Below, one piece after another: positions 6,075 to 23,425 of a DNA stretch of 38,864 bases. The notes under the pieces are model-generated. The model was given only the letters and a program-made list of their open reading frames with translations. It was not told the DNA's origin and searched no databases. The DNA comes from Lachnospiraceae bacterium (GTDB lineage Bacteria > Bacillota > Clostridia > Lachnospirales > Lachnospiraceae): NCBI GenBank assembly GCA_017624495.1, contig JAGAMY010000030.1:1-38864 (forward strand), given 5' to 3'. Both the position numbers and the translations under genes were made by a program. How positions within the stretch are numbered: position 1 is the stretch's first letter; every line of letters begins with the position of its first letter.

Positions 6075-6081
6075 ATTATCA

Positions 6082-6600: not shown

Positions 6601-6625
6601 GGATTCGTTAAAGTAACTGGTTGAC

Positions 6626-6669
6626 AAGGTGTAAAGTCTATTGAATAATAGAAGACTTTGCACTTTTTT
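6626..6669 (+). terminator. Terminator after the first coiled-coil gene
   Basis: AAGGTGTAAAGTCT (6626-6639) pairs with AGACTTTGCACTTT (6653-6666) over 14 positions with two wobbles, ending in a run of six T residues. Confidence 0.85.
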
Positions 6670-6772
6670 CATATAGATATTTTGGAATTGTAATTATATA
6701 GGTGTGGAGCAGTTACTTTTGGATAAGTATTGAAGTTGAAAGACGGTAGCAGGAAAGAGAAAGGAGAAAAGA

Positions 6773-7171
6773 ATGTTAGAGAAAAGAGATGTGGTACTGA
6801 TAAAGGAAGTTGTCGAAGAAGTTGTAGGCAGGCTAGAAGTTCGAATGGACAGATTTGAAGAGCGAATGGACAGAGTTGAGAAACGAATAGATAAAGTTGA
6901 AAAGCGAATAAATCAGCAGGATGACAAGATAGATAAATTGAATCAAAAGATGGAAAAACGATTCACAGAGACAGAAAATTTAATTTTGCAGTATGTGGAT
7001 GATACCAGACATATTCTTGAAGAAAAGATAGATAAGGTAGATGCTAAGGTAGAAGAAGTTAAGCAGTATCATAAAATGAACGAACAGTTATATGAAAATC
7101 AGACATTATGTTTTCAGCTTATTCATGATTTACGGGTGGATGTGGACAAATTAAAGGAGAAAACTGCATAA
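6773..7171 (+). CDS. Coiled-coil protein, 132 residues
   Basis: An almost purely helical protein. Residues 20-65 repeat the heptad pattern RMDRFEERMDRVEKRIDKVEK and similar, followed by QDDKIDKLNQKMEKRF. A second helix covers about residues 70-130. It resembles short coiled-coil segments of phage tail or kinetochore-like proteins only in composition, so I do not assign a family. The ribosome site AAAGGAGAAAA precedes the ATG. The protein resembles its upstream neighbour in being a charged heptad-repeat helix, so the two could be distant paralogues. It ends 20 bases before the esterase gene, which may therefore be co-transcribed. Confidence 0.7.
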   Translation: MLEKRDVVLIKEVVEEVVGRLEVRMDRFEERMDRVEKRIDKVEKRINQQDDKIDKLNQKMEKRFTETENLILQYVDDTRHILEEKIDKVDAKVEEVKQYHKMNEQLYENQTLCFQLIHDLRVDVDKLKEKTA

Positions 7172-7191: not shown

Positions 7192-10101
7192 ATGAAAAAA
7201 CGAATAATAAATGTATTAATAACTGTAGTATTCATATTTTTATTATATGGAATGGCAAAAAATACAGCTTCGATAGAAAGTTTCGTCATGCCGGAGAATC
7301 CTTCCACATCGGGGGAAAGTATTGCTAAGATAAAGCAGATTGTGTTGAACGAAAATATTTATACATATCAAGTGACACTGCCAGAGGGCTACGATTGTGC
7401 AAATGAAAAACGAAAATATCCGGTAGTATATTTGTTGCCGGAGGATGGAATTTCTGGAAATTCAGATATAGTAAAACAGGCAGTAAGTGATGCAGTTGAA
7501 GCTGGTGATATTGTGGATGTTATTATAGTAGAACCGGCATTTAGTGCAGTAAAGGAATCTGCAAATACCAGTGCTTATGAGGCAGTCAGTGCGATAATTA
7601 CAGAAGTAGATAAAGAATATCACACCATAGCAGATGCATCCATGAGAGCAGTTATAGGAACACAGACAGGAGGCTATCTGGCTACAATTTTAACTTATAC
7701 AAATGGAGATAAAAGCTGGAATAATAGTCCGAAATTATTTGGTATGATGGCAAGTATTCATGGTGATTATAAGAGTGATGCAAATATCTGGAAAGAAGTT
7801 CATGGAGATTTTTATGAAATCGCAGCAGGTGGTGGAAAGGGCGAACTGGATAATCGTACAGCCAATAAATTTTATACGTATATGAGCACAGCGACAGAAG
7901 AAGAGAGTGCGTATGTAAATGGTGGTGCAAATGACATTATTGCATATTTTATTCAGAATGGCAGTGCCTATGAAGGGGCTTTTTATGGTTTTTATGGAAA
8001 TGCAGATGCATATGTATTAAATCTTACTGCAAAGAATAGCGTATATGATGAGACTTATATTCGTACTTCTGTAAAAGAGGCGATGACAGGGTTTGGAGAT
8101 AAGCTGGTACAGAATATGGTTTCCGGTAAACTGTCATTGACCCCACAGGCAGCATTGGCAGCTGAGAAGGAAATTGAGGCTGTATATGAGATAAATGTGG
8201 GAGAAATGTATACAACGTATTGCGGTGACATGGAAAACAAAATGGAAGTGAGAATTTCCATGTCGGATACAGATGCGGGTGAAGCTGTTGCGGAGGATAT
8301 CGTTGTTGAATTGATGGCAAAGGAAACTGAAAAAGGCAGTGCGTATACCAATGCAGATAAATCATTAAAGCTACCAAATATTGTCAATACTGTCAGTACG
8401 GATGTTACCTTATCCGTAAAGCTTTTAGGAAAGATTATCCCGATAGAAACAAAAGCACTTGTCCGTATAGAAAAAACAGGAGAAAGTCCAGAAGAGCAGT
8501 TAGTAGATTTAATGGGCAACTGGAAGTTTCAGGCATTTCGGGATGTAAAATTATCTGCCGGTGCATTACCGCAAAAGGCAGACTATGATACATGGGAAGA
8601 AGTATATCCTTGCCTGACTTGGTGGAATGGAGAGTTTTCCCAAAAAACTAATATGGCATCCTACAATGGCTATGCTTGGTATATAAAAGAATTTGAAATT
8701 CCTTCTTATTTCCCAGAGGGAGAATATTATGTTCCGTTGGGATTTTTTGATGAAACGGATATCTGCTTTATCAATGGAAAGCAGATAGGCTGTACCGGTT
8801 TACATGCCAAAAGCTGGCGACATGAAGCAGATTGCTGGGATACAGAGCGTGTGTATACCGTAAGTTCTGATGTCTTAAATATAGGGGGAAACAATGTAAT
8901 CACTATACTTACGCACAACCAGTCCGGTGATGGTGGCTGGTATAAAGGGCACCCGGGTATTTATACAAAAGCTGCCTATGCAAAGCTGATAGGAAAAGAG
9001 GAAGAGGAAAGTCAGGAACGTTTCTTTAGCCAGACAATTCCTTCTAGGTATCGTGCAAAACTTACCGGTGCAAAGGAAGAAACCGTGGAAGAAAACTTTT
9101 GGGTTTATCTGCCAGAAGGTTATTTTGAGCCGGGAAATGCAAATAAACGATATCCGACAGCCTATGTGTTGCATCAGTTAAACAGCAGCAGTAATTCCTA
9201 TGTTATAGATGGAATAGATGAGCTGTTAGATGAAGGAATTATAACAGGAAAAGTGAAAGAGATGATAGTTATTATTCCAGACAGCACAGGTGAAAGCTGG
9301 TGGTGTAATGGTTGGGATGCTATGGTAACAGAGGAGATTTTACCATTTGTAGATGCCAATTACAGAACTATTCCGGATGCCAGATATCGTTTTCTAGCCG
9401 GCGCATCAATGGGTGGAAGCGGAGCGTACTATATCGGTCTGACGAATCCGGATTTGTTTTCGGGAATAGTAAGTTTCTTTGGTGCAATTAATATGGGGAA
9501 ATCACCACTAAATATTGCTTTGACGGAAAGTAAAGAATATTTAGATTACTTTACACAGTATTTTGTTTGTGGTAATCGTGATTTATATAAATTTGGTATT
9601 CCTGCCATTGCATTGGATAAAAAGCTGCATGCTTATGGAATAGAGCATTTCTTTGAACTTGAGGAAGGAGAACATGACAGTGAATTTTATCTTCCCTATG
9701 CGATAGATTCCTTTGCGTACCAGAGTGCGGCAATGCCTGAGATTACAGCAGAAGATGCAGCGAATGTAATTCGTGGAGAGCTGATGAATTATCGTATCGG
9801 TAATGGAAATATCTGCGCAGTGGCAAATGTGGAAATTACGGATAAGATAAAGGAGTATCTGGCAGAAATACCACAGTCAAAATATGCAAAAGAAACATCT
9901 CCTGCACTACTTCTGCCTGTAACATTGAGTGTTATAAAGGATGGAAAGGTTCTTTGCAGCCAGACACAGATTATTGCAGCAAAAAAAGGAAAAACAGAAA
10001 ATATGGAATGGAATATAGAATGTGAAGAACTGTCCCAAAATGGACAGTATGATGCAGTAAAAGTCTATGTGAGTGTAATGAATCAGACCATAGAATTATA
10101 A
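7192..10101 (+). CDS. Secreted tandem esterase with a carbohydrate-binding middle domain
   Basis: A 969-residue exported protein; the ribosome site is TAGGAGAAG. An uncleaved or signal-type hydrophobic segment covers residues 5-22. Residues about 45-310 form one alpha/beta-hydrolase domain of the putative esterase (esterase D/enterochelin esterase) type. Residues about 425-600 resemble the beta-jelly-roll sugar-binding domain of GH2 enzymes (WYIKEFEIP, FINGKQIG, NVITILTHNQ). Residues about 615-860 are a second esterase domain. The second has an intact triad: Ser739 in GASMGG, Asp797 and His828. The first has Gln158 in GTQTGG where Ser is expected, so it is probably inactive. Relatives act as acetyl- or feruloyl-esterases on plant polysaccharide, which would suit the GH26 enzyme further on, but the substrate is not certain. 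Confidence 0.85.
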   Translation: MKKRIINVLITVVFIFLLYGMAKNTASIESFVMPENPSTSGESIAKIKQIVLNENIYTYQVTLPEGYDCANEKRKYPVVYLLPEDGISGNSDIVKQAVSDAVEAGDIVDVIIVEPAFSAVKESANTSAYEAVSAIITEVDKEYHTIADASMRAVIGTQTGGYLATILTYTNGDKSWNNSPKLFGMMASIHGDYKSDANIWKEVHGDFYEIAAGGGKGELDNRTANKFYTYMSTATEEESAYVNGGANDIIAYFIQNGSAYEGAFYGFYGNADAYVLNLTAKNSVYDETYIRTSVKEAMTGFGDKLVQNMVSGKLSLTPQAALAAEKEIEAVYEINVGEMYTTYCGDMENKMEVRISMSDTDAGEAVAEDIVVELMAKETEKGSAYTNADKSLKLPNIVNTVSTDVTLSVKLLGKIIPIETKALVRIEKTGESPEEQLVDLMGNWKFQAFRDVKLSAGALPQKADYDTWEEVYPCLTWWNGEFSQKTNMASYNGYAWYIKEFEIPSYFPEGEYYVPLGFFDETDICFINGKQIGCTGLHAKSWRHEADCWDTERVYTVSSDVLNIGGNNVITILTHNQSGDGGWYKGHPGIYTKAAYAKLIGKEEEESQERFFSQTIPSRYRAKLTGAKEETVEENFWVYLPEGYFEPGNANKRYPTAYVLHQLNSSSNSYVIDGIDELLDEGIITGKVKEMIVIIPDSTGESWWCNGWDAMVTEEILPFVDANYRTIPDARYRFLAGASMGGSGAYYIGLTNPDLFSGIVSFFGAINMGKSPLNIALTESKEYLDYFTQYFVCGNRDLYKFGIPAIALDKKLHAYGIEHFFELEEGEHDSEFYLPYAIDSFAYQSAAMPEITAEDAANVIRGELMNYRIGNGNICAVANVEITDKIKEYLAEIPQSKYAKETSPALLLPVTLSVIKDGKVLCSQTQIIAAKKGKTENMEWNIECEELSQNGQYDAVKVYVSVMNQTIEL

Positions 10102-10118: not shown

Positions 10119-10146
10119 TTGCAATTATAAAAGAATATGCTATAAT
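10119..10146 (+). promoter_or_regulatory. Promoter of the riboswitch operon
   Basis: TTGCAA at 10119-10124, a 16-base spacer, and TATAAT at 10141-10146 preceded by TGC (extended -10). It lies about 25-30 bases before the riboswitch. Confidence 0.7.
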
Positions 10147-10171
10147 GTGGTGTGCAAAAAATGAATAATGT

Positions 10172-10335
10172 CTTTTAGGTGTCAGACGCAATGCGGTCTG
10201 GTGAAAAGGGAAACCGGTGTAAATCCGGTACGAACTCGTCACTGTGATAAGGTGCTGATTGTCAATATGCCACTGACGTATGTTGGGAAGGCGGCAAGAA
10301 GCAAAACCTTTAAGTCAGGAGACCTGCCTAAAGGA
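10172..10335 (+). promoter_or_regulatory. Cobalamin riboswitch aptamer
   Basis: The conserved cobalamin-aptamer elements occur in order: TTTAGGTG, the GGTGAAAAGGGAAACCGG segment, ATCCGGTACG, a TCACTGTGA segment, GCCACTG...TGGGAAGGC, and the B12 box AAGTCAGGAGACCTGCC at about 10312-10328. This is an adenosyl- or hydroxocobalamin-sensing RNA. The part before TCACTGTGA is slightly divergent from the usual CCCGCCACTGT. It is followed by a terminator, so the expected behaviour is shut-off of the operon when cobalamin binds. The rest of the 10102-10441 gap holds the promoter and the expression platform. Confidence 0.95.
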
Positions 10336-10396
10336 GTACGATAACCACGAGTAACTGGTTGTACGAGATATATAGACTAAGGGACGTTTATGCTCA

Positions 10397-10441
10397 AAAT
10401 CTCCTACCATAACGAAAGTGGTTGTGGTAGGAGATTTTTTT
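10397..10441 (+). terminator. Riboswitch expression-platform terminator containing the ribosome site
   Basis: AAATCTCCTACCA (10397-10409) pairs perfectly with TGGTAGGAGATTT (10425-10437), followed by a T-run to 10441. The ATG of the next gene begins at 10442, directly after the T-run. The only ribosome site, AGGAG at 10429-10433, is inside the 3' arm. The same hairpin would therefore stop transcription and also hide the ribosome site. Confidence 0.9.
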
Positions 10442-12415
10442 ATGTTTAACAGAAAGATAAGACATTTTACCATTTTATTTTTAATTTTTACTATTTTATT
10501 TTATAGTATAGCCGGCTGGAACAGACCTAAGATTGTGGAGCCAAAGGATCAGACAATTATCCATGCAGAGGAATTGCAGGTAGATATCGGCACGGTCAAG
10601 GGCAGCTGGAAGGAAAATGAATCGAAGGATTTGGATAACAAAGAAAACCAAAAAGAGGAATCTCAAGAGGACTTCAAAGAGGAAATTCAAAAGCAGCAGG
10701 AGGATAAGACTAAACAGCAGGAAGAAAGTGAAAATACAAATGCTGACACTGAGGAATTGGTAAAAGGAGAAAGAAGGAAATCTATAGAACGTAGTGAAAA
10801 TATTAAGGATGGAGAGGGAGTAAGAAGGGAAGAAGAAACAGAGTCGCCAGATGAAGGCGAAACGGAAACGCCTGAAGAAGAAACAGAAACACCAGATGAA
10901 GGCGAAACGCCTGAAGAAGAAACAGAGATGCCAGGAGAAGGAGCTACAGAAGCTCCGGGTGAAGCGGATATAGATAAACCAGGGGATACCGATGAAGAAG
11001 ATTTAGCAGATACAGAAACAGAAGAAGAAATCGAGGATGCAGGAATTGTTACAGATTTGTATGACCGGATAATTGTGCAGTCAGAACTGCAGGAGGACCT
11101 ATTTTCTTTTTATGTCTATTATGCAGACCCGACGGTAAATGCAAATATCCGGGTAAATTATAAGCATGAAAGTGAAAGCGGGACAGGTACATATCTGACA
11201 GCAAAAGATGGAAAAGATTATCAGACAAAGCTTGCATTAGGAAAGAACTATATCACTGTATATTACTCCCAAAGTAATGGTGAGCGTACATATACACGTT
11301 ATGTCATTACTTATCAGGCAAAAAAAGCAGATGAGGAAAATCCAGAGGAAGGTGAGCATCCACCAAGCATTGAAACAAATTTAGATGGCTGGAGCGGCGA
11401 AATCAAAACGAATGAATTTACATTTGTTGTTAAAGCAAGAACCTGGGAAGATGCAGTGATTTATGAAAATCATATTCAGGTGGCTTTAGATGGAAGTCCA
11501 ATCGTAAATCCTACCGGAAAAGGAACTTATGAATATGTATTAAGTTTTCAAAGACCGGAAACCGGAGATTACAGCTATCACACGGTTACTGTTTTGGCAT
11601 GGGATGATGATGGAAACTCTAAATTTGTAAAGTATACGATAACCTATCATGCTGTGGATGAAGGGGAAGAGCTTGGTGCAGTAACGGTTATTATTGATGC
11701 AACGACGGTAAGCTGCGGTATTGTAGATGAATATGAAGTAAATGTAAAAGCCGGAGATACCGCTGCTACCGCATTGCTGCTTGCCTTAGATGAATTAGGG
11801 TATACCTATGTAATCGAAGGAACTGCACAGGCAAATTTCTATTTGCGCAGCATTGAACGAGCAGATGCATTCCGGGGTTGTGCAGTTAGTGATCGGTTAA
11901 AAGCATTGTTAGAAAGAGATGGTATAGGCTTTCTTGCTCCCGGAAACAGGGATAAGTTAGGCGAGTTTGATTTCACAGCGGGTTCTGGCTGGATGTACTT
12001 TATCGATGGAGAAATATGTCCGGGCAAATCCATGTATGCGTGGGTTCTAAATGGTGGAGAAACGGTTCATATGCGTTTTACTTTATCCTACGGAAAGGAT
12101 TTAGGTGCAATACAGGAAGGTACGGGAAGCTTAAGTTCTTATTGTGCGGTTTGGTTAAATGGAACAATTACAGAATTAGAACACAGCTACGAAGAAAGTA
12201 ACCGGGTGGAACCGGAGGGAACAACCGAAGGGTATGTAGAATACAAATGCAGTAAATGCGGAGAAACCAGACAGGAGGTTATATTGCCACCAGAGGGAAG
12301 TGAAGAAACCGAAAACGAAGCAGAAGGTGAGGCAGCAGAAGGTGAAGAAGCAGAAGAGGAAGAAACAGAAGGTGAGGAAGTGCCTCAAAGAGAGAATGAA
12401 GATGAAGGATTGTAA
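10442..12415 (+). CDS. Secreted DUF4430 (transcobalamin-C-like) protein
   Basis: A 657-residue exported protein. I start at the ATG at 10442, which has AGGAG eight bases upstream; an in-frame GTG at 10418 falls inside the terminator. Residues 1-26 are a signal or anchor segment. Residues about 57-200 are acidic, with Glu/Thr/Pro repeats that look like a surface stalk. Two beta-sandwich domains of cadherin-like type lie near 207-290 and 310-408. The DUF4430 domain covers about 413-550, with the hallmark GSGWMYFIDGE and AWVLNGGETV. Near residue 600 is a small HSYEES...CSKCGE motif, then an acidic tail. DUF4430 is the family related to the C-terminal beta domain of transcobalamin and intrinsic factor. 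With the B12 riboswitch in front, corrinoid binding is a reasonable inference. Confidence 0.88.
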   Translation: MFNRKIRHFTILFLIFTILFYSIAGWNRPKIVEPKDQTIIHAEELQVDIGTVKGSWKENESKDLDNKENQKEESQEDFKEEIQKQQEDKTKQQEESENTNADTEELVKGERRKSIERSENIKDGEGVRREEETESPDEGETETPEEETETPDEGETPEEETEMPGEGATEAPGEADIDKPGDTDEEDLADTETEEEIEDAGIVTDLYDRIIVQSELQEDLFSFYVYYADPTVNANIRVNYKHESESGTGTYLTAKDGKDYQTKLALGKNYITVYYSQSNGERTYTRYVITYQAKKADEENPEEGEHPPSIETNLDGWSGEIKTNEFTFVVKARTWEDAVIYENHIQVALDGSPIVNPTGKGTYEYVLSFQRPETGDYSYHTVTVLAWDDDGNSKFVKYTITYHAVDEGEELGAVTVIIDATTVSCGIVDEYEVNVKAGDTAATALLLALDELGYTYVIEGTAQANFYLRSIERADAFRGCAVSDRLKALLERDGIGFLAPGNRDKLGEFDFTAGSGWMYFIDGEICPGKSMYAWVLNGGETVHMRFTLSYGKDLGAIQEGTGSLSSYCAVWLNGTITELEHSYEESNRVEPEGTTEGYVEYKCSKCGETRQEVILPPEGSEETENEAEGEAAEGEEAEEEETEGEEVPQRENEDEGL

Positions 12416-12418
12416 GAG

Positions 12419-13561
12419 ATGAGGAAAATAGTAAGAAACGTGATAATGCTGCTAGTCTGTTTGTGTATGTTTTTTCCGCATTTGGTTTATGGAAGCAGCA
12501 TGGAAAACGTAGATTTGCAAAGTGCGATTTTACAGACAGCAGAAAGTTTGCAAAAGGTTGCAGGACACACAGGAAAGCATCTGTTAAAAGACCGGGAATA
12601 TATAGCTGCCGGCAGCTCCCATAGTGACTGGATTGCCATGACACTGGCGTTATCAGGAACGGAAGATGCGTATGAAGTGTATAGAAAGCGTTTAAAGAAG
12701 CATGTCATAGAGAAATATGAACAGGAGGGCTGTCTGGATGCCTATAAAGCAACCGAATATCATAGAATCGCACTTACTATGCTTTCTCTTGGAGAAGAGC
12801 CGCAGAATATAGAAAATGCCGGAAATGTCATCGATCTGATTGCCGACGGAACTTACAATTTTCATGGAGATTCCTTAGATTTGCAAGGAGCAAACGGTGT
12901 AATCTACGCATTGCTTACGCTTGATGCAAAACATTATGAAATCCCGGAGAATGCAAAATTTACACGCGAAGATATGCGGATAACCTTACTTAAATATCAG
13001 TGTGCGGATGGCGGATTTGCTTTGATGGGAAATATCAGTGGAGATGTTGGCATTACGGCTATGGCATTGCAGGCACTTGCTCCATACAGGGAAGATGAAG
13101 AGATTTTACTTTCAATAGAAAGGGCATTGAATTGGTTATCCAAACAGAGGATGGAAAATGCGGAATCCACTGCACAGACAATATTGGCATTGTGTGCGTT
13201 GGGAATAGACATAGAAACGGACGAAAGATTTACAAAAAATGGTCAGAGTCTGCTTGGGGAATTGAACCGCTTTCGTATGAAAAATGGCATGTATATGCAT
13301 GATGAAAGCAGTGGAGAAGAAAATATTGTGGCAACCTTTCAGTCCCTGCTGGCTATGGAGGCATTGTATGCGCAAAGGACACAGGGGACATGGATTTTTG
13401 ATTTTGCCGAATATCAATTGCAGATAAAAGAGAATTATTGGCAGAAAGGAATATGGGCAGCAGGCATTTTGCTGACAGGATTATTAGCAGTTAAAGCAGC
13501 TTTTATTATCAGAAAAAGAACTACAGACAAAAAAGGAGAAAAAAATGCACGAAATCATTGA
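12419..13561 (+). CDS. Membrane-anchored alpha/alpha-barrel (prenyltransferase/transcobalamin-alpha-like) protein
   Basis: A 380-residue surface protein with a signal peptide (residues 1-27), a helical body (about 30-335) and a C-terminal membrane helix (about 343-362) followed by a basic tail. The body has repeated helix pairs typical of the prenyltransferase/squalene-cyclase toroid: GANGVIYALLTLDA, then RITLLKYQCADGGFALMG, SGDVGITAMALQALAPY, STAQTILALCALG and IVATFQSLLAMEAL. This alpha6/alpha6 toroid is also the fold of the cobalamin-binding alpha domain of transcobalamin. No DDxD cyclase motif was noticed, so enzymatic terpene chemistry is unlikely. It begins three bases after the DUF4430 gene with no strong ribosome site, implying translational coupling, and overlaps the next gene by 17 bases. 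Confidence 0.8.
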   Translation: MRKIVRNVIMLLVCLCMFFPHLVYGSSMENVDLQSAILQTAESLQKVAGHTGKHLLKDREYIAAGSSHSDWIAMTLALSGTEDAYEVYRKRLKKHVIEKYEQEGCLDAYKATEYHRIALTMLSLGEEPQNIENAGNVIDLIADGTYNFHGDSLDLQGANGVIYALLTLDAKHYEIPENAKFTREDMRITLLKYQCADGGFALMGNISGDVGITAMALQALAPYREDEEILLSIERALNWLSKQRMENAESTAQTILALCALGIDIETDERFTKNGQSLLGELNRFRMKNGMYMHDESSGEENIVATFQSLLAMEALYAQRTQGTWIFDFAEYQLQIKENYWQKGIWAAGILLTGLLAVKAAFIIRKRTTDKKGEKNARNH

Positions 13562-14492
13562 CTCGGTCATAAATGAAATTAAGAAAGTTATTATTGGAAA
13601 GGATGATGTGGTAAACAAGGTGTTGATGGCAATTCTTGCACAGGGGCATGTACTGCTTGAGGATGTTCCGGGTGTGGGAAAAACCACATTGGCAATGGCA
13701 TTTGCCAAAACATTAGGGTTAGATAATAGACGTGTGCAGTTTACATCCGATACGATGCCGTCGGACATTATTGGTTTTTCTGCCTATGATATGCAGACAG
13801 GAGAATTGCAGTACAAACCGGGAGCAATCATGACCAACCTGCTGTTAGCAGATGAAATTAACCGTACATCCAGCAAAACACAATCAGCGCTGCTAGAGGC
13901 GATGGAAGAATGTCAGGTTACAGTGGATGGTATTACAAGGACACTGCAGGCACCATTTATTGTATTGGCAACACAAAATCCGGTGGGTACTGCCGGTACA
14001 CAGTTACTTCCGTCGGCACAGTTGGATCGCTTTTTATTGCGGTTGTCCATGGGATATCCTGACCGTGCCAGTCAGGTGGAGATTATGAAGGAGCGCCACC
14101 GTGAAAATCCATTGGATAAAATTCAGGCAGTTGTGGATAAAGCCATGGTGCTTACATTAATTGAAAAAGCCTCTGAAGTTTATGTGGCAGATGTGTTGTA
14201 CGAATACATATCGGATTTGGTAGAGCAGACAAGAAAAAAATCCGGTATACAGTTAGGCGTAAGTCCCCGTGGTGCATTGGCACTTTGCCGAACAGCAAAA
14301 GCATGTGCATTTTTAGCAGGCAGAGACTATGTAGTGCCGGAGGATGTGGAAGAGGTATTTATTTGCGTCTGCGCCCATCGTTTGGTGTTGTCTTCAAAAG
14401 CAAGGCTGCATGAGCAGTCAGCAGAGCTGCTGTTGGAGGAAATTTTAGCGGAAGTTCCAAAACCAAGAGTAAAGGAGTCGCTGATACGATGA
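13545..14492 (+). CDS. MoxR-family AAA+ ATPase
   Basis: A 315-residue cytoplasmic ATPase of the MoxR/AAA_3 type. Walker A is GVGKTT with Lys46; Walker B is LLLADEINRTSSKTQ; sensor 1 is ATQNPVG; an arginine-finger region DRFLLRL and the C-terminal lid domain follow. MoxR proteins act as chaperone-like ATPases, often with von Willebrand or DUF58 partners. The start has AAAGGAG eight bases upstream and overlaps the previous gene by 17 bases. The stop overlaps the next start (ATGA), so the three genes are translationally coupled. In this operon it probably helps assemble or activate the surface or membrane proteins; that role is inferred. Confidence 0.95.
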   Translation: MHEIIDSVINEIKKVIIGKDDVVNKVLMAILAQGHVLLEDVPGVGKTTLAMAFAKTLGLDNRRVQFTSDTMPSDIIGFSAYDMQTGELQYKPGAIMTNLLLADEINRTSSKTQSALLEAMEECQVTVDGITRTLQAPFIVLATQNPVGTAGTQLLPSAQLDRFLLRLSMGYPDRASQVEIMKERHRENPLDKIQAVVDKAMVLTLIEKASEVYVADVLYEYISDLVEQTRKKSGIQLGVSPRGALALCRTAKACAFLAGRDYVVPEDVEEVFICVCAHRLVLSSKARLHEQSAELLLEEILAEVPKPRVKESLIR

Positions 14493-15637
14493 AGAAAAGA
14501 ATAGCAGCCGCATTTTTTCTCTGGATGTTAGGCGTACTGTGCTTTGGCATACTGACGATTTATTCAGACAGCAGAATATTGTGGATGTGTCTGTTTTTGT
14601 GGATACTATTCCCATTTGTTACATGGGGAGTAAACCAAGTGGCAAAAAAGAACATTTCGATTGCATTTTTTGCGCCATCTTCCATGGAAAAAAATGAAAA
14701 GATTTCGGTAACTATCGTGGTAGAAAATACTGGATGTATTCCTGTGGCAGGTGTTTTTTGTGTGGTGGAGATAACAAATCTTTTTACAGGTGAAACAGAT
14801 AAAAAAGATATATTGCTTGCTGCGCCGGCAAAGAGCCAGATGGAAAAAGCCTTGCAGATAACCTCAAGTCATTGTGGGTATTTACAGGTGAAAATAGTAA
14901 AAATCCATGTATTGGACTGGATGGGATTTTTACCCATTGCCTGTGAAAAAAAAGCAAAAAAGAAAATTTCGATTTTGCCGGATACATTTTCTATGCATTT
15001 ATATTTAAGCAGGGCAATGGCAGAAATGGAAAATGCAGAGTACTGGTCAGGGAGTGAAAAAGGGCTGGATCAGACAGAAATATTTGCTCTGCGTGAGTAT
15101 GCAGAAGGGGATAGCTTAAAACAGATGCATTGGAAATTATCCTCTAAGCAGCAGAAAATGATTGTAAAAGAAGCAAGTATGCCAATGGTGAAATCACTAT
15201 TGATTTTCTGGGACAAAAATACAGCGCATGCATCGCCGGAGGAATTAGATGCTATGGCAGAAAGTATTTCCTCCATCGGTCAGGAGCTTATACAGCAGGG
15301 GAATTCGTTTACATTGGGATGGACAAATGGAAATATCAACGTTTTTGAGGATATAGATACAGAAGAGCAAATATTATCAGTAATTCCTAGAATGTTAAAA
15401 ACGGGTGTGAATCTGACAGCAGGTTCTGGGGCATTTTTATACAACCAGACGAATGGTGAAAGATATTTTGGAAAAGTGATTTATATGGCAAAAACGATTC
15501 CGGCAGATTTTGAAGAAATGACAAAGGGCGATATGACACTGTTATTGTGTGATGAGCAGATAAGGGATTTGGTATGGAAAACCATTCGGTTTCATGCAGG
15601 AAGTTATAGAACAGATTTGGCAGCAATAGAATTGTAG
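14489..15637 (+). CDS. DUF58 membrane protein
   Basis: A 382-residue protein with two close N-terminal membrane helices (about residues 5-22 and 27-45) and a large soluble part. The DUF58 signature lies near residues 199-230: REYAEGDSLKQMHWKLSSKQ followed by QKMIVKEA. DUF58 proteins are nearly always encoded next to MoxR and transglutaminase-like genes, exactly as here, and have a vWA-like fold. The gene overlaps moxR by four bases and ends 13 bases before the transglutaminase gene. The function is unknown in detail; it likely links the cytoplasmic ATPase to membrane partners. Confidence 0.9.
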   Translation: MKKRIAAAFFLWMLGVLCFGILTIYSDSRILWMCLFLWILFPFVTWGVNQVAKKNISIAFFAPSSMEKNEKISVTIVVENTGCIPVAGVFCVVEITNLFTGETDKKDILLAAPAKSQMEKALQITSSHCGYLQVKIVKIHVLDWMGFLPIACEKKAKKKISILPDTFSMHLYLSRAMAEMENAEYWSGSEKGLDQTEIFALREYAEGDSLKQMHWKLSSKQQKMIVKEASMPMVKSLLIFWDKNTAHASPEELDAMAESISSIGQELIQQGNSFTLGWTNGNINVFEDIDTEEQILSVIPRMLKTGVNLTAGSGAFLYNQTNGERYFGKVIYMAKTIPADFEEMTKGDMTLLLCDEQIRDLVWKTIRFHAGSYRTDLAAIEL

Positions 15638-15650
15638 AGAGGAAAATTCT

Positions 15651-17873
15651 GTGAAAGGATTACATATAGAAACCTGTGAAAATCAGGATATACAAAAGAA
15701 TAGCAGCAGCTTTTTACTGGTTATCTCCGTGCTTTTCATTACAGGTTTTGTAAAAATATTTTTATCCGGGTTTTTTGGACTAAAAGAAAGCTGGTGGCTC
15801 TTTGGGATGGGCTGTGCATTATTATCCATAGTGCTAAACGGGCTGTATAGAAGAAAATGGAAAGCATACATCCAGATAGCAGGAAGTATCTGCTTATTCA
15901 TTTTCTTTATTTTAAATTTTACAAGGGTAAAAAATGGAATTTATATTCTGGTTAATGATATTTTGGAGTACTTAACAGGAAAAAATGGAAAAATATATTT
16001 AGATTATCAAGTGACGGAAAATAATGATGTCTATCTTGCAGCGACACTTTTTATGGCTTTTTTCACCTTATGCATGGTACAAATCATTCATACAGGAGGC
16101 TTTGTATGGCTGGGAGTACTTGCCGGAATAGGACTTGCTGGTGGTGTGTGTAAGTTTTGGGAAATAAATGACGGCTGGTTTTATGTATTGACTGGAAGTA
16201 TCTGCTGGTTGTTTTATAAAAATTTTCGTGACGGACAGACAAAACAGTCATGGAAAAGCTTTCTGGCATTTGCAGGGATATTTTTATTGTGTGTGGGATT
16301 TTCTTTTGGAGCGGCATCCATATGGAGCAGGGACACGGCGGATGTTGTAAAAACAGCGAAAAATGCTATTCACAGACTGCGGTATGATGATGCATACAAT
16401 GCCATGCCGGAGGGGAATTTGATAAATGTGGGAAATTTTGAAAAAAATGATAAAACAGCATTGTTGATTCAGGCAGAACAGCCACAGAAATTTTATCTTA
16501 GGGGGCTGGTTGGAGAAGTATATACCGGAAGTGCATGGGAAACCTTCGATGAGCAGATATACATTGAAAATGAAGCACTCTTTTACTGGCTGCACAAAAA
16601 GGAGCTTTATGGACAGAGTATGCTGGCAAAGGCAGCATGTTTGGATGAAGAAACACAAAAAAAGAAACTGACTGTTATGAATGTATCCGCATGTCAAAAG
16701 CATTTATATCTGCCCTATGCATTAAGCGGAAGGGATGTATTAGACAGTAAAGAAATCGGGGATGGAACGGTTATTTCAGATAGTGAAGAAATACACATTT
16801 CCTATGTGCCAGGCAGTATTCCACAGTGGTATGGGACCGCCGCTTATCTGATGGAACATCAAAAGGAAGAAGAGGTTTTAGCATATTTGAAGTTAGAGCA
16901 GACCTACAGACAGTTTGTTTATGAAAATGATTTACAGATGACAAGCGCAGCAGCCGGGGTCTGTAGTGATTTGTTCGCAGAAGCGGATGGAGAAAAAACG
17001 CTGACAGAAATATTGGAAATTATACGGGCAGCACTAGATGAGAAGCTAGTGTATAACGACAAAGTAAGAACCTTAAATGGCAAAAATGATTTTTTCCAGT
17101 ATACCATGGAACAGAGTAAAAAAGGCTATAGTGTACATTATGCCACAGCGGCAGTTCTTATGCTCCGTTATTTTGGTGTGCCGGCAAGGTATGTAGAAGG
17201 TTACTATCTTTCAGGCGATGAAGCGAAAAACTATGAAGCAGGAGATACCATTCGCCTGACAGAGGCACATGCCCATGCATGGGCAGAGTATTATTTAGAT
17301 GGTATTGGCTTTATTCCTTTCGAGGTAACTCCGGGCTATGTGGATGAGAACGATCAGGTAATTGCTGCACAGGAAGGTGAAAACAGCAGGGAAAAGGTAG
17401 GAAAAACTTTTCAAAAAAGTACCATGGCATATACGCCGCCGAAAAATCCAAAATCTAATTTGCAGCCAGAAGATTATAGCAGACGGTTAAAATTTGCACC
17501 GGAAAATTTGCTGGTGTTGTTTGGAGTGTTGCTATTGGCAGGGCTTTTGATTTTGGGAATGTGGATTTTAAAAAGAAGGAAAAGATTGTTGGAGTTTCTT
17601 CGTTCTTTAGAGCAAAAAGATAACCGGACAGCTATTTTGGAAATGTTTGGCTATGCAAAAATGCTGACAGACCGGTGCAAAATAGCGATGCCGGATAGAA
17701 TGGATGAGATTTGGGAAATCAATCTGGAGGCAATGTTTAGCAACCACGAAATGCAGGAGGAAAAACGCAGAAAAGTAGAAGCTTTTATGGCGCAGAGCAT
17801 TGCATTATGCAAGGAAAAAAACAGCAGTATAAAAAACATTGGTTACCAATATGTTCTCTGGCTGTATCGCTAA
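15651..17873 (+). CDS. TgpA-like membrane transglutaminase-fold protein, catalytic Cys replaced by Ser
   Basis: A 740-residue protein starting at GTG with GAGAGGAAAA upstream. Several membrane helices occupy about residues 20-235, an extracellular region follows, then the transglutaminase-like core at about 480-565. Another membrane helix lies at about 620-643, with a cytoplasmic DUF4129-like tail. In the core the motif reads KKGYSVHYATAA where the family has GYC-HFA, so residue 494 is Ser (codon AGT, one change from TGT). His542 is present in AHAHAWAEYY and an acidic residue, Glu558, in PFEVTPGY. Without the Cys nucleophile it may bind rather than cleave or cross-link, unless Ser serves. Membership of the MoxR-DUF58-transglutaminase triad is clear from order and spacing. 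Confidence 0.88.
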   Translation: MKGLHIETCENQDIQKNSSSFLLVISVLFITGFVKIFLSGFFGLKESWWLFGMGCALLSIVLNGLYRRKWKAYIQIAGSICLFIFFILNFTRVKNGIYILVNDILEYLTGKNGKIYLDYQVTENNDVYLAATLFMAFFTLCMVQIIHTGGFVWLGVLAGIGLAGGVCKFWEINDGWFYVLTGSICWLFYKNFRDGQTKQSWKSFLAFAGIFLLCVGFSFGAASIWSRDTADVVKTAKNAIHRLRYDDAYNAMPEGNLINVGNFEKNDKTALLIQAEQPQKFYLRGLVGEVYTGSAWETFDEQIYIENEALFYWLHKKELYGQSMLAKAACLDEETQKKKLTVMNVSACQKHLYLPYALSGRDVLDSKEIGDGTVISDSEEIHISYVPGSIPQWYGTAAYLMEHQKEEEVLAYLKLEQTYRQFVYENDLQMTSAAAGVCSDLFAEADGEKTLTEILEIIRAALDEKLVYNDKVRTLNGKNDFFQYTMEQSKKGYSVHYATAAVLMLRYFGVPARYVEGYYLSGDEAKNYEAGDTIRLTEAHAHAWAEYYLDGIGFIPFEVTPGYVDENDQVIAAQEGENSREKVGKTFQKSTMAYTPPKNPKSNLQPEDYSRRLKFAPENLLVLFGVLLLAGLLILGMWILKRRKRLLEFLRSLEQKDNRTAILEMFGYAKMLTDRCKIAMPDRMDEIWEINLEAMFSNHEMQEEKRRKVEAFMAQSIALCKEKNSSIKNIGYQYVLWLYR

Positions 17874-17908
17874 AGAACAGTGGCAATAAACACGAAAAGG
17901 AGAAAAAA

Positions 17909-20900
17909 ATGAGAAACCAGAGATGGAAACGTTGTCTGGCGTGGATACTGTCCATTATGATTATGCTTTCTGGCGTACAGACGGTAAATGCCGCACAGAT
18001 AACAGGTGAAACACAGGATATTACGTCAACAGAGAATGTTGTGGCAGAAGGATTTTTTTATCTGTCGGCAGTGACTCTTTCGGAAAACATTATTGAACCT
18101 GTAAAGATATGCTATACACAGAATGCAACGGTAAAAGAGGCATTACAGGCAAGTGGCTATACCTTTATGGGATTAGAAGAAGGATTTATCCATGCCATTG
18201 AAGGCATAGATGGAAATTTTTCCGTTTTAATGAGTGATGGTGGATATGATTTAAACAGGGCAGCCAGCGAAGTTAGTGTGGTGGCATTTACTGAAGGTGA
18301 AGTGTATTCATCGGAAATGGTGGCTTTGATTACCCGGATGGGTGAATACAATGCCATGACTAATCATGTGCAAAACTATGCAAAAGCAACAGAAGCTTAT
18401 GAAAAGGCATTAGAAGGACTTGCAGAAGCGGATGCAGAAACGGCGCAGAAGCTTTTAACGGCATTAAATGCAGCAATTGCAGAATATGAAGAGCTCTTTA
18501 ATGGAGAAAAAAAGACAGTTACGGTAACTGCTTTACAGGGCGAAAACACATTAACTGCACCCGTACTTACATTTATGGACAGCTATGGAAATGTGACAGA
18601 AGCAGTAGGCACAAGTGTAGATGTATTAGCAGGAGAGTATGCTTTTGTAGTATCCGATGGCAGCTATAACCGCACAGAAGGTACAGTTACAGTAACCGAA
18701 GAAACCGAATTGCACGTAACCCTTCCTTCCGGTGAATGGTTTGGGGATATTCAGATTTTACGAAAAGAAACCGATGCGGAAGGAAACAAAATTCCTTATG
18801 CATATACGCAGGATACAAAAACACATACAGCAGAATATTTTATTGATGATACAGCAGGAAAAACAGGAAGTACCTATTTATATGCAGGGAAAGGTGCTGA
18901 CTGGCTGGAGGGAACAAAATTGTATGGTGCATACAAGGGGCTAAATGGGACGGATTATGGAACCGTGGTTAGAAGCTGGGAATCTTCCAGCAATGCACTT
19001 GTACAGGCAATTGATAAGGGAATGGAAGGAAATGCATTTCCTTTTGAAGCCAGATATACCGGAGAAGACGGTTATGTGATGATTCAGTCCTATGATGTAA
19101 TACTAACCCGTGTGCCGACATTAAGCAGTATTGTGCTAAAGGATGGAAACGGAACATCCTTGCTTACGGATTTTGCTTCTCATGTGAAAACGTATAGTTT
19201 AAATACCATAAATGATACTTTATCTGTAGAAGCAGCTCCTTATGGTGCAGAAGGATATTCTGTTCGCATGGAAGCACAGGATAAAGAAGCAGACTACTGT
19301 GCAAAAATTGCAGACGGAGAAAATGTAGTAACTGTAGTGGTATCACATACCAATGGACAATCCACAAGCTATATATTTACGGTAAATAAAACAGCGGCAG
19401 CAACAGTAACCATGGAGACTGTAGAGGGTGTAACCGTAGAAGTAGTCAATGAAAATGGCAATGTTATTGCACCTAAAGCAGCAAATGTTTATGAACTGAT
19501 TCCGGGAAATACTTATAACTATATTGCAACAAAAGAAGAAAATTATCATGCTACAGCAGCTTTTATTGCAGAGGAAAATGCAACGGTTACCGTGGCTGCG
19601 CCGGTAGTGGAAACAGCGATGACGAAATTTGCATTGTATGATGGTTCAAGTAAAACGACAAGAAAAGAGCTTGTGAGTGAAACGGAGTTTTCATCGGATA
19701 TTTATGAATATACTTATGTAGTATCTGATGCAAATTCTGCGTTATATGCACAGGCAACAAAAGAGAGTGCTTATACAGCAACTGCAAAGTACACTAAAAA
19801 ATCTGCAACCTCCACAGCTGTGCATAATGTGGAAGCGGCAGTCAATATTGCAAAAACGGTAAGCAGTACAGGAACGACCACAAGTTTGACGGCGGCGGTT
19901 GCTAAAAGTGGATATGGCAATACAATCACACTGCGTCTGTGGAAAGAGGCAGATAATGTGACCTATTATCAGGACTATATTTTGCATATAAACCGATCAC
20001 TGCATCTTGCAGACTTATCGGTGTCTATAGATACGGGCAGTCTTTCTTTTGTAGATGCGAATAAGGCATCATTGGCATTTGACAGGGATATATTTGAGTA
20101 CTCTGTGTTAGTGCCATCAAGTACAGAGCAGGTTTGTCTGCAGGCAGAATTTATGAATGAAACAGCAGTTACAGATGTTTGTGGCGGTTATTATGCCATG
20201 TTAGATGGTGTGCGTTATGACAGTTTAGCAGAAGTAAATCTGGCATTAGATGTATCTGCAAAGGAAGAAACAAAGGAAATAAAAGTCTATCATGAAAACG
20301 GTGTTGCCATCAGCAATACTTATGTAGTAAAGGTAAAAAAACAAACGCCTGTAAAGGTAACCTTTGCTGCAACACCGGAGGATGCCATTGTATTTGTGGT
20401 AAATCAGGTGGATAACAAGCCGGTTTTTGCTGAAAATGGTATATTCGAATTAATGCCGGGAATAGCCTATACCTATACGGTAACAGCAGACGGATATCAG
20501 GCACAAAAGGTAACGGATTTTGTATTAGAAGAAAAGGAAACAGAAACGATTGAAATTGCATTGACAGCTGCGAATATCAACGAAAATTTAAAGGAATTAG
20601 AAGCGCAGTGGCCGGCTTTCCGGGATAAAAATAATAACGGAGTAGTCGATGCTAAAATACCGGTTAAGGCAGAAGATGCAGTACTTTACTGGGCCAATAA
20701 AGTTGGAGACAGTTATGGCTCCGGTGCAACAGGCTGCCCGATTATGGTGGATGGCTATTTGTATGTATATGCAGGAACAAGCATTGTAAAGGTGGATTCT
20801 GTCACCGGTGAAATAAAAGCTTCCGGAGAAATGTTAAAAAGCTCCTCATTTGCCATTAATAATCCGACCTATGGCAATGGCATGATTTTTGTGGGCTTGT

Positions 20901-23425
20901 CTGGTGGAACGATTCAGGCATTTAATGCAGAAACCTTAGAGTCTTTGTGGATATATAAAGATGCCTTAGGCGGTCAGCCAAACTGTCATATTGCCTATCA
21001 TGATGGATATGTGTATACAGGTTTCTGGAATAGTGAAACGAAAGATGCGAATTACGTCTGCGTTTCTGCTGCTGATGAAGATCCGACACAGACACAGGAA
21101 GAAAAAACAGCTTCCTGGGTGCATACACAGGCAGGCGGTTTTTACTGGGCAGGTGCTTATGTTACCGATGATTTTTTGCTGGTAGGGACAGATGATGGGG
21201 AAAGCGGTTATAGTACAGGCTATGCACATATACTGTCTATAGACCCTAAAAGTGGAAAAATCTTAGATGATATGCAGCTTCCGCATGTGGGAGATTTACG
21301 CAGCAATATTACATATGATGCAGAGGAAACAAAGGATTATTATTTTACCACAAAGGGTGGATATTTTTATCGTATTTCTGTAAATGAAGAGGGTATATTT
21401 ACAGAAAATTCCTTAAAATCCGTGAAACTGCCAAATGGCACGACTACAGCATCCATGAGTACATCCACACCGACGATATATAATGGAAGAGCCTATGTGG
21501 GTGTAGCGGGTTTAGGTCAGTTTGCGGCATATTCCGGTCATAATATTGCTGTTATTGACTTGGCAAGAATGAAGGTGGCATATTCCGTGCCTACCCAGGG
21601 ATATCCACAGACCAGTGGCGTTTTGACGAATGCATATGAAGAAGAAACTGGAAAAGTATATGTGTATTTCTTGGATAACTATACACCTGGAAAATTGCGG
21701 GTATTTTCGGATATGCCGGGACAGACACAATTAACGGATGTTACAGAGGAAGTAGTATCCGGTAAAACATATAGTGCAGGCTATACATTGTTTACACCAA
21801 GTGGCAGTCAGGCGCAGTATGCAATCTGCAGCCCGATTGTAGACGAATATGGAACACTGTATTTTAAAAATGATTCTGCGTATCTGATGGCATTAGGTGC
21901 AACTATAGAAAAAATTGAAGTAACCCAGATGCCGGATAAGTTAGTATATAAGTTAGGAGAAAGCTTTAGTGCAGAGGGCATGAAGGTAACAGCGACTTAT
22001 ACAAATGGAAAAACAAGAGATATCACAGAATATATTTCTTATTCTAACGAGCCGATAACCGAAAATGATTTGGATTTTCCGATTACATTTGAGCATGTAA
22101 TGTATCAGGATAAGGATGGACAGGCAGGTGTAGATTATACAGCACCAATGACATTTGTGGAGCTTTCCTTAGAAGTAGATGCGGCTTATGTAATGAATAG
22201 AATAGAAGAAATCGGCGAAGTAATCTTAGAAAAAGAAGAAACCATCAAAGGTATACGTGCTTTATATGATAGTTTATCGGATGAAGAAAAAGGTCTGGTT
22301 GAAAACTACAGTGTTCTTGAGGCAGCAGAAGCAACGTTTACAGAGCTAAAAAATGTAGCAGATAAAGAAGCGGCAGACGCAGTAGCGGCCTTGATAAAAG
22401 CCATTGGAGAGGTAAGTTTAGAAAGTGAAAGTGCAATTGAAGAGGCAAGAAGCGCATATGAAGCACTGACAGAAGACCAGAAAGTATGGGTAAGCAGTGA
22501 AGATATTGCAGTACTAGAGGGTGCCGAAAGTACGTTAGCACAGTTGCAGAAAGAAAAAGCAGAGAAAGAAGCGGCCGAAAGAGAAGCAGCAGAGAAAGAG
22601 GCGGCTGAAAAAGAAGCAGCAGAGAAAGAGGCAGCCGAAAAAGAAGCAGCAGAGAAAGAGGCAGCCGAAAAAGAAGCAACAGCGAAAGCAGAAGCAGAGA
22701 AGGCTGCGAAAGAAGCAGCGGATAAAGAAATTGCAGCTACGGTTATTGCAAAGATAGAAGCTATCGGAGAAGTAACGCTGCTAAGTGAAAGCGCAATTCA
22801 GGAAGCAAAAACAGCATATGAAGCACTAAGTGAAAATCAGAAGAAATATGTGGACAGTGTGTATGTACGCATGTTGACAGAGGCAGAGGCAGTACTTGTA
22901 AAGCAACAGGAGGCGGTAAAAGCCGGAGCAGAAATTACAGTAGAAAACTACCGCTATAGAATTACAAAGAATTCTCTGACAGATGGAACGGTTGAGTTTG
23001 CAGGCGCATCAAAGCGTACAGAAAAATCCATAAAAGTACCGGCAGAGATAACCATATACGGAGTAACCTACAAAGTAACTTCTATTGGGAAAAATGCCTT
23101 TAAAAACAACAAAAAGCTCACCAGTGTAGTCATTGGAAAGCATGTAATTTCTATTGGCAGCAATGCGTTTAACAATTGTAAAAAACTCAAAAAATTAACA
23201 CTTCCTGTAAATGTAACAAAAATAGGTGCATATGCATTTAAGAATTGTACAAAGTTGAAAACACTTACCATAAAGAGTAAGAAAATAACAGCTAAAACGT
23301 TACATAAAAAAGCATTTAGCGGTTTGGAAAAAACGACAAAAATAAAAGTTCCGAAAACGAAAAAGAAAACCTATAAGAAGCTATTTAAGAAATGTGGATT
23401 AAGTGCAAAGAATTCTATAAAATAA
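17909..23425 (+). CDS. Giant surface protein with cadherin-like, PQQ-propeller and LRR domains
   Basis: An 1838-residue secreted protein. I start at 17909, which has AAAGGAG six bases upstream and a clean signal peptide ending VNAA; an earlier in-frame ATG at 17807 lies inside the previous gene. Residues about 45-115 weakly resemble the DUF4430 fold. Cadherin-like beta-sandwiches lie near 404-494 and 700-811. A DKNNNGVVD calcium-type loop precedes a PQQ-like beta-propeller at about 910-1330 (DGYLYVYAGTSIVKVDSVTG, GTIQAFNAETLESLW). Next come a bacterial Ig-like domain (about 1332-1420), three helical repeats of about 70 residues with an AAEKE tract (about 1424-1670), and BspA-type leucine-rich repeats (about 1674-1800). 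The C-terminus is Lys-rich and has no sortase motif. It is last in the riboswitch operon, 35 bases after the transglutaminase-like gene. Confidence 0.85.
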   Translation: MRNQRWKRCLAWILSIMIMLSGVQTVNAAQITGETQDITSTENVVAEGFFYLSAVTLSENIIEPVKICYTQNATVKEALQASGYTFMGLEEGFIHAIEGIDGNFSVLMSDGGYDLNRAASEVSVVAFTEGEVYSSEMVALITRMGEYNAMTNHVQNYAKATEAYEKALEGLAEADAETAQKLLTALNAAIAEYEELFNGEKKTVTVTALQGENTLTAPVLTFMDSYGNVTEAVGTSVDVLAGEYAFVVSDGSYNRTEGTVTVTEETELHVTLPSGEWFGDIQILRKETDAEGNKIPYAYTQDTKTHTAEYFIDDTAGKTGSTYLYAGKGADWLEGTKLYGAYKGLNGTDYGTVVRSWESSSNALVQAIDKGMEGNAFPFEARYTGEDGYVMIQSYDVILTRVPTLSSIVLKDGNGTSLLTDFASHVKTYSLNTINDTLSVEAAPYGAEGYSVRMEAQDKEADYCAKIADGENVVTVVVSHTNGQSTSYIFTVNKTAAATVTMETVEGVTVEVVNENGNVIAPKAANVYELIPGNTYNYIATKEENYHATAAFIAEENATVTVAAPVVETAMTKFALYDGSSKTTRKELVSETEFSSDIYEYTYVVSDANSALYAQATKESAYTATAKYTKKSATSTAVHNVEAAVNIAKTVSSTGTTTSLTAAVAKSGYGNTITLRLWKEADNVTYYQDYILHINRSLHLADLSVSIDTGSLSFVDANKASLAFDRDIFEYSVLVPSSTEQVCLQAEFMNETAVTDVCGGYYAMLDGVRYDSLAEVNLALDVSAKEETKEIKVYHENGVAISNTYVVKVKKQTPVKVTFAATPEDAIVFVVNQVDNKPVFAENGIFELMPGIAYTYTVTADGYQAQKVTDFVLEEKETETIEIALTAANINENLKELEAQWPAFRDKNNNGVVDAKIPVKAEDAVLYWANKVGDSYGSGATGCPIMVDGYLYVYAGTSIVKVDSVTGEIKASGEMLKSSSFAINNPTYGNGMIFVGLSGGTIQAFNAETLESLWIYKDALGGQPNCHIAYHDGYVYTGFWNSETKDANYVCVSAADEDPTQTQEEKTASWVHTQAGGFYWAGAYVTDDFLLVGTDDGESGYSTGYAHILSIDPKSGKILDDMQLPHVGDLRSNITYDAEETKDYYFTTKGGYFYRISVNEEGIFTENSLKSVKLPNGTTTASMSTSTPTIYNGRAYVGVAGLGQFAAYSGHNIAVIDLARMKVAYSVPTQGYPQTSGVLTNAYEEETGKVYVYFLDNYTPGKLRVFSDMPGQTQLTDVTEEVVSGKTYSAGYTLFTPSGSQAQYAICSPIVDEYGTLYFKNDSAYLMALGATIEKIEVTQMPDKLVYKLGESFSAEGMKVTATYTNGKTRDITEYISYSNEPITENDLDFPITFEHVMYQDKDGQAGVDYTAPMTFVELSLEVDAAYVMNRIEEIGEVILEKEETIKGIRALYDSLSDEEKGLVENYSVLEAAEATFTELKNVADKEAADAVAALIKAIGEVSLESESAIEEARSAYEALTEDQKVWVSSEDIAVLEGAESTLAQLQKEKAEKEAAEREAAEKEAAEKEAAEKEAAEKEAAEKEAAEKEATAKAEAEKAAKEAADKEIAATVIAKIEAIGEVTLLSESAIQEAKTAYEALSENQKKYVDSVYVRMLTEAEAVLVKQQEAVKAGAEITVENYRYRITKNSLTDGTVEFAGASKRTEKSIKVPAEITIYGVTYKVTSIGKNAFKNNKKLTSVVIGKHVISIGSNAFNNCKKLKKLTLPVNVTKIGAYAFKNCTKLKTLTIKSKKITAKTLHKKAFSGLEKTTKIKVPKTKKKTYKKLFKKCGLSAKNSIK
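22561..22680 (+). repeat. Four 30-bp tandem repeats encoding (EKEAAEKEAA)n
   Basis: Units at 22561-22590, 22591-22620, 22621-22650 and 22651-22680 share the pattern AGAGAAAGAGGCAGCCGAAA plus ten bases, with only a few changes. Each adds ten helical residues, so slippage would change spacer length without a frameshift. Confidence 0.9.

Follow-up and report, generated by a model that had tools for sequence, protein, structure and literature searches.

A cobalamin-riboswitch operon of a Lachnospiraceae bacterium predicted to encode an extracellular corrinoid-capture complex

Introduction

Corrinoids are needed, and competed for, by many gut bacteria. To our knowledge, surface capture of corrinoids is known mainly from Bacteroides, and energy-coupling factor (ECF) transporters, ECF-CbrT among them, are not known to have an extracellular binder. 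Here we ask what is made by six genes that lie behind a cobalamin riboswitch in a 38,864-nucleotide stretch of DNA from a Lachnospiraceae bacterium (assembly GCA_017624495.1, contig JAGAMY010000030.1, positions 1 to 38,864 of the forward strand; hereafter the window). Genes 1 and 2 encode a DUF4430-type protein and an α/α-toroid, or barrel, protein, and genes 3–6 encode a MoxR-type ATPase, a DUF58 protein, a transglutaminase-like protein and a large propeller protein (Table 1). An original prediction, made from the sequence alone, took the first two products for a split transcobalamin that clamps a corrinoid at the cell surface, with the other four assembling around them.

We consider it likely, from comparisons of sequence, that this is a corrinoid-starvation operon building an extracellular corrinoid-capture complex on a Gram-positive cell of Lachnospiraceae type and feeding an ECF-CbrT-type transporter. 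A function in corrinoid acquisition is well supported by the comparative evidence and the clamp mechanism is a good hypothesis; the elaboration with MoxR and propeller proteins appears to be the most unusual part.

Results

A DUF4430 protein and a barrel protein

The gene 1 protein has a single hydrophobic segment, located at its N terminus, a linker (residues 61–210) that is 40% acidic, and a DUF4430-type domain (residues 410–555). The whole protein has no Pfam match at E 0.05, and the cut-out domain matches DUF4430 (PF14478) at E 0.019 (15.8 bits, under the gathering cut-off of 23.8). A relative from Hominisplanchenecus faecis, itself above the DUF4430 cut-off, matches the gene 1 domain at E 5e-23. 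All 38 of the 38 aligned sequences, the window's among them, match DUF4430 at E 0.1 or better, and the SGWMY motif is shared. The sequence assignment of the domain as DUF4430-type is weak in Pfam and clear through relatives. The gene 2 protein matches the Prenyltrans toroid of Pfam at E 4e-4, under the cut-off. Its hydropathy profile places a hydrophobic segment at the N terminus, ahead of the toroid domain, and a hydrophobic helix at the C terminus, with positive charges behind it. These matches and the hydropathy bear out the earlier description of gene 1 as a DUF4430 protein and gene 2 as a membrane-anchored α/α-barrel. NCBIfam gave no name to genes 1, 2, 4 or 5.

The barrel is linked to cobalamin riboswitches

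Named genomes were scanned with an alignment of three barrels; of the 98 encoding stretches found, we kept the best 80 as loci. The 80 loci are partly redundant (L075 and L076 overlap on one contig), and those closest to the window come from Lachnospiraceae and Eubacteriales. We located riboswitches with a covariance model, R1, trained on 13 riboswitches (twelve taken from regions outside the 80 loci, plus the window's own), dropping before counting two matches in the 80 loci (E 0.57 and 0.73) and three in other regions (E 0.0086–0.042). An R1 riboswitch occurs at E 0.007 or better in 57/80 loci and lies on the strand of the barrel in 56/80; counted singly, 66 riboswitches have the barrel's orientation and 3 the opposite one. 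The same-strand riboswitch is upstream of the barrel in 52/80 loci (51 without the weak matches of L076), at a median distance of 3.15 kb, and in 39 of the 51 loci that have a full 10-kb left flank.

A second sample, of 98 genomes, comprised the window's genome and its relatives. The gene 2 barrel is encoded in 23 of them, DUF4430 in 40, and a cobalamin riboswitch is present in 72. Leaving aside the window's own, 14/31 barrels have a riboswitch at Rfam level no more than 15 kb upstream, against 0.09 expected. The original prediction had said that it would fall if the pair occurred mostly without cobalamin riboswitches; this is not the case in the 80 loci, and the relatives' genomes give the 14/31 just quoted.

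The barrel co-occurs with DUF4430 and a CbrT-type transporter

Open reading frames (ORFs) for both barrel and DUF4430 are present in 67/80 loci, and in 39/80 the two share a single ORF, barrel-then-DUF4430 being the commonest order of the fused ORFs (20/40). An ECF S component is encoded in 51/80 loci, a T component in 50 and an ECF-type ATPase in 54, the last count coming from a profile that also matches other ABC ATPases. When a profile of 21 S components was compared with solved structures, the best match was 6FNP (CbrT, E 1.3e-21), followed by a riboflavin uptake protein at 1.2e-5. 6FNP is ECF-CbrT, a transporter of cobalamin and cobinamide from Lactobacillus delbrueckii (PMC5997447, in excerpt).

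The same association holds between genomes. The CbrT-type S component is found in 21/23 barrel genomes and 3/75 others of the 98-genome set (Fisher 3.7e-16), and in 24/25 barrel genomes versus 21/124 others in a phylum sample of 149 genomes (Fisher 2.4e-14); both tests assume independent genomes, an assumption that related genomes do not satisfy. The barrel genomes lacking it are the window's (54.7% complete) and G070 (77%) in the first set and the window's in the second. In 22/24 phylum-sample genomes the S component lies within 10 kb of the barrel, taking one barrel per genome and the nearest where several were seen. DUF4430 likewise occurs in 22/23 barrel genomes versus 18/75 others of the 98.

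Riboswitch linkage and S component co-occurrence together argue that the pair handles the same cargo as ECF-CbrT. With a riboswitch upstream in 52/80 loci, fusion in 39/80 and this co-occurrence, the original placement of the pair in corrinoid acquisition stands. We also count in its favour that the window's genome encodes a protein with a B12-binding domain. That the cargo is instead cobalt, or another B12-related compound, seems to us very improbable: cobalt transport is also controlled by cobalamin riboswitches and L064 has a T component with a weak match to CbiQ, but the S components match PF12822/PF07155 and CbrT, and CbiM (PF01891) was matched once, at E 0.021, in one of four S proteins scanned.

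Relation to transcobalamin

A stricter form of our proposal, compatible with it, is that the DUF4430 domain and the barrel are homologous to the β and α domains of transcobalamin and close on their ligand with the same geometry. We rate its chances a little short of even. In transcobalamin the barrel precedes the β domain, and this order is shared by 13 listed chains in which the barrel is followed by DUF4430 after a gap of 34–65 residues (two of these chains, from L061 and L092, are the same protein). The top match of the DUF4430 profile among solved structures is the β domain of transcobalamin-2 (5no0), but this match falls short of significance (E 0.032), and the next ones, at E 0.36, are to unrelated proteins. 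Cobalamin_bind (PF01122), which does not recognise gene 2, is weakly matched by 2/80 barrels scanned (2/58, best E 9e-4, and 0/22 further ones; 118 stretches of at least 200 residues were available). The barrel profile finds squalene-hopene cyclases (terpene cyclases) and alpha-2-macroglobulin as its nearest solved relatives and no cobalamin binder at E 1, and a profile of the fused chains reaches transcobalamin through the β part only (E 0.65–1.3).

Of the split-transcobalamin clamp originally proposed, then, the tie of the pair to corrinoid acquisition survives, whereas the transcobalamin-like clamp itself is plausible but not established, the sequence evidence for it being weak. A working principle common with transcobalamin is likewise plausible; membership of its family is not shown.

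Loci with the MoxR module

The MoxR–DUF58–transglutaminase form of the locus occurs in six loci besides the window (L064, L072–L075 and L077). The order DUF4430–barrel–MoxR–DUF58 is repeated in L072, L074, L075 and L077 (from H. faecis; L055 is on the same contig), the mechanical ORF list giving L075 a 434-residue opposite-strand ORF between barrel and MoxR. The transglutaminase gene is next in L074, L075 and L077; L072 ends before it, and L073 starts at the barrel. The propeller gene lies downstream in the window, L073 and L074 and upstream in L075 and L077. Riboswitches accompany this form in the window, in L055/L077 (about 12–14 kb upstream of the barrel), in L064 and in L074, whose riboswitch came to light outside the first flank, in a longer stretch of the contig. 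Upstream of that one, L074 has a second riboswitch with cobT, cobU and cobS. The available sequence of L072 and L073 stops short upstream, and L075 has weak matches only (those of L076, E 1e-4 and 0.007).

A Pfam scan of the six operon proteins found no transporter, and ECF S and T components and ATPases are absent from them, as the original prediction had said of ECF and BtuCD systems. The complex could accordingly be a sensor or hoarding device that keeps corrinoid at the surface and feeds no transporter, and L072–L075 and L077 too have the MoxR form without an ECF S component within the fetched stretches. In L064, however, a riboswitch and ECF genes are followed by MoxR–DUF58–transglutaminase–barrel–DUF4430 in one riboswitch-led cluster, and the H. 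faecis genome holds both kinds of operon, MoxR-type and ECF-CbrT-type, on different contigs. A sensor or hoarder is therefore rather improbable in our judgement, and the H. faecis arrangement fits the earlier suggestion that the operon may feed a transporter encoded elsewhere. As a separate observation, the gene that comes first after the L064 riboswitch, ahead of the ECF genes (10618–11652, minus strand), encodes a homing-endonuclease-associated repeat protein (PF18780, 2e-31).

A general module with a probably inactive transglutaminase

The gene 3 protein matches AAA_3 (5.8e-55) and AAA_lid_2 (7.8e-26) of Pfam, the gene 4 protein has hydrophobic segments and a DUF58 match under the cut-off (E 0.0027), and the gene 5 protein matches Transglut_core. 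At what we take to be the catalytic Cys position of the transglutaminase domain (PF01841), all six operon transglutaminases (window, L064, L073, L074, L075 and L077) have Ser, Asn or Asp in place of Cys, with the His retained; gene 5 has Ser. Among 27 other transglutaminase homologues from relatives, taken from 30 loci out of 60 matches, less the window and the operon members L163 and L164, the Cys is present in 21 and missing in 6, and five of these six rank nearest among those examined. The Cys is kept in all seven other transglutaminase-fold domains of the window's genome. This pattern suggests that the gene 5 transglutaminase is probably not an enzyme.

We rejected the idea that the module is specific to B12 operons. 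Six regions, covering five of the Cys-less homologues and an extra copy in one of their genomes, each contain MoxR and DUF58 genes and no DUF4430, barrel or R1 riboswitch match. The module thus appears to be a general one that was recruited into the B12 operon, where it may help to assemble surface proteins. In L192–L197, MoxR–DUF58–transglutaminase modules adjoin other large proteins; by eye, those of L194 and L196 resemble hybrid kinases and L197 resembles a sortase/pilus operon.

The propeller protein and surface assembly

The gene 6 protein contains LRR_5, PQQ_2, Cadherin-like and Big_3 domains. A second DUF4430 domain suspected by eye at its N terminus was unsupported (1.2 bits); the H. 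faecis homologue does have an N-terminal DUF4430 domain. A search of solved structures for a relationship of the propeller to BtuG gave an unrelated chain as best match (E 0.033) and BamB at 0.23. In L096, L129 and L146 the propeller, DUF4430 and barrel modules are united in a single polypeptide. These chains support the original idea, that the module and the propeller protein assemble around the pair, as regards the propeller. As regards the module, the idea needs correcting in that the transglutaminase is probably not an enzyme and the module also occurs outside a B12 context.

Two proteins of the L074 cluster terminate in a dockerin: one of 1631 residues (2e-23) and the propeller protein (3e-12), the latter having dockerin at the C terminus where the window's protein has LRR_5. 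Two further L074 proteins match cohesin, one above the cut-off (1e-6) and one below it (2e-4). L075 has one cohesin match above the cut-off and a second just below, on a protein that also carries a dockerin. These proteins form a cellulosome-like arrangement adjoining cobalamin genes, and their cohesin and dockerin domains support a physically assembled surface complex in those relatives.

Such an arrangement would also suit a surface complex for adhesion or glycan capture whose repression by B12 is incidental, or one that works without B12 and stands in for a function that depends on it. The four domain types of gene 6 are general surface modules, and the MoxR module stands beside other large proteins elsewhere. 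An unrelated function does not, however, fit the co-occurrence of the barrel with the CbrT-type S component in both genome samples and its frequent place in ECF loci, and we consider this explanation unlikely.

Layout and control of the operon

The aptamer match to RF00174 and the gene coordinates confirm the earlier description of a full cobalamin aptamer followed by six tightly spaced or overlapping genes. All six are on the plus strand, with overlaps or spacings of at most 13 bases; the one larger gap is the 35 bases that would precede gene 6 with ATG 17909 as its start. The gene 6 ORF opens at 17807, and ATG 17909 is preferred for its better ribosome site. Apart from this aptamer, which R1 (built in part from it) also matches, the 1.93-Mb, 54.7% complete genome yielded no cobalamin riboswitch. 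Promoter-like sites are as common as in shuffled sequence (42 found versus 40.3). The gene 1 ATG (10442) sits inside the T-run of the terminator. The candidate antiterminator pairing appears only in RNA cut at 10424; shorter cuts lack it, and the full-length RNA folds as the terminator. The anatomy of the RNA suggests the expected logic, in which bound corrinoid would repress the operon.

Table 1 Features of the operon and of related loci (window coordinates unless a locus is named)
Feature	Position	Strand	Remarks
Promoter-like site	10119-10146	+	TTGCAA-16-TATAAT, TG before second hexamer; consensus match alone
Cobalamin riboswitch aptamer (RF00174)	10160-10345	+	116.2 bits (gathering cut-off 31.5), E 1.1e-28, full length (positions 1-189)
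Candidate antiterminator	10342-10424	+	10342-10348 predicted to pair with 10418-10424; RNA folding
Intrinsic terminator	10396-10445	+	18-bp hairpin and T-run, also holding gene 1 ribosome-binding region; fold z -5.6
Gene 1	10442-12415	+	657 aa; N-terminal signal/anchor segment, acidic linkers, DUF4430-type domain
DUF4430-type (transcobalamin β-like) domain of gene 1	11669-12106	+	With insert and conserved SGWMY motif
Gene 2	12419-13561	+	380 aa; α/α-toroid (barrel), hydrophobic segments at both termini; 3-base gap after gene 1
Gene 3	13545-14492	+	MoxR-type AAA+ ATPase; overlaps gene 2
Gene 4	14489-15637	+	DUF58 protein, N-terminal hydrophobic segments; overlaps gene 3
Gene 5	15651-17873	+	Membrane protein; transglutaminase-like domain without catalytic Cys (GYSVH), His kept; 13-base gap after gene 4
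Gene 6	~17909-23425	+	~1838 aa secreted protein; Cadherin-like, PQQ_2 propeller, Big_3, LRR_5
Cohesin/dockerin proteins of B12-type MoxR clusters	L160 (G100:C41) 67-7062; L074 7040-8125, 15184-19596; L075 4313-5350, 15595-16716

Just 5′ of the riboswitch, the window encodes a 969-residue protein with two Putative esterase stretches (7192–10101). Downstream of the operon are an AcrB-type RND protein and a GH26/CBM27 protein (24214–28206 and 28464–32327), and a TwoAYGGAY RNA (RF01731, 106 bits) lies at 38159–38323 on the plus strand.

Discussion

The following sequence of events would account for these data. When corrinoid is scarce the aptamer would be empty, the terminator before gene 1 would not form, and all six genes would be made. 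The DUF4430 and toroid proteins, both membrane-anchored outside the cell, would bind corrinoid, probably between them, and the large propeller protein may extend or scaffold the complex. The MoxR ATPase, the DUF58 protein and the transglutaminase, probably catalytically dead, would act as a membrane-associated assembly module. Corrinoid would then be passed on to an ECF transporter whose S component is CbrT-type and encoded elsewhere in the genome, a hand-over that we propose because the S component co-occurs with the barrel.

Several results weigh against this proposal. Within 15 kb, 17/31 barrels of the relatives lack a riboswitch at Rfam level; R1 gives weaker matches (27.7–31.4 bits) in six regions of riboswitch-less barrels (L034, L036, L037, L068, L070 and L071). 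Riboswitches are also not commoner in barrel genomes (15/23) than in others (57/75), and no MoxR-type locus is among the 52 whose fetched flank includes an upstream riboswitch. The MoxR module has a life outside B12 operons, and the solved relatives of the barrel are terpene cyclases and alpha-2-macroglobulin. Finally, a search of the window's genome for the CbrT-type S component came up empty, which is weak evidence because that genome is 54.7% complete.

Known systems resemble the predicted complex in part. In ECF-CbrT, the best solved match of the S component in the related loci, the membrane S component itself binds the substrate (PMC5997447, in excerpt), whereas here secreted or anchored proteins are predicted in front of it and the ECF genes are absent from the window operon. 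Animal transcobalamin, intrinsic factor and haptocorrin share with many bacterial fusions an α/α barrel and the order barrel then β; transcobalamin is, however, one secreted protein where the window has two membrane-anchored ones, and the sequence homology is weak. DUF4430 has been placed at the C terminus of TCN proteins (PMC4350170, in excerpt). BtuG of Bacteroides is a propeller, and a propeller-type domain in gene 6 is a point of likeness. The BtuG and BtuH surface lipoproteins capture B12 at the surface ahead of a transporter (PMC6143338 and PMC10404256, both in excerpt), but do so at a Gram-negative outer membrane with the TonB-dependent BtuB, and no solved structure matches the gene 6 propeller convincingly. 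MoxR–DUF58–transglutaminase operons elsewhere have the same three genes in the same order; the window differs from them in its cobalamin-riboswitch setting with the DUF4430/barrel pair and in the loss of Cys (6/6 operon members versus 6/27 others). Among the matches listed from the open-access literature, we found no paper tying DUF4430 to bacterial cobalamin uptake; subscription journals and preprints were outside this scope, and a prior description is possible there.

More broadly, and at somewhat less than even odds, we tentatively suggest that the pair represents a widespread Gram-positive two-domain corrinoid clamp, akin to animal transcobalamin and intrinsic factor, that serves as an extracellular partner of ECF-CbrT. 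In some Lachnospiraceae and relatives, it may have been elaborated through the MoxR ATPase and the dead transglutaminase into a cellulosome-like assembly of DUF4430, barrel and propeller (with cohesin and dockerin in L074 and L075), and animal B12 carriers may share its origin. If the capture complex proposed above is right, the operon would be a Gram-positive counterpart of B12 surface capture in Bacteroides and would give DUF4430 proteins and their toroid partners a testable function. It would also mean that an ECF transporter is able to work with extracellular binders, and would provide a bacterial relative of the animal B12 carriers for comparison with intrinsic factor.

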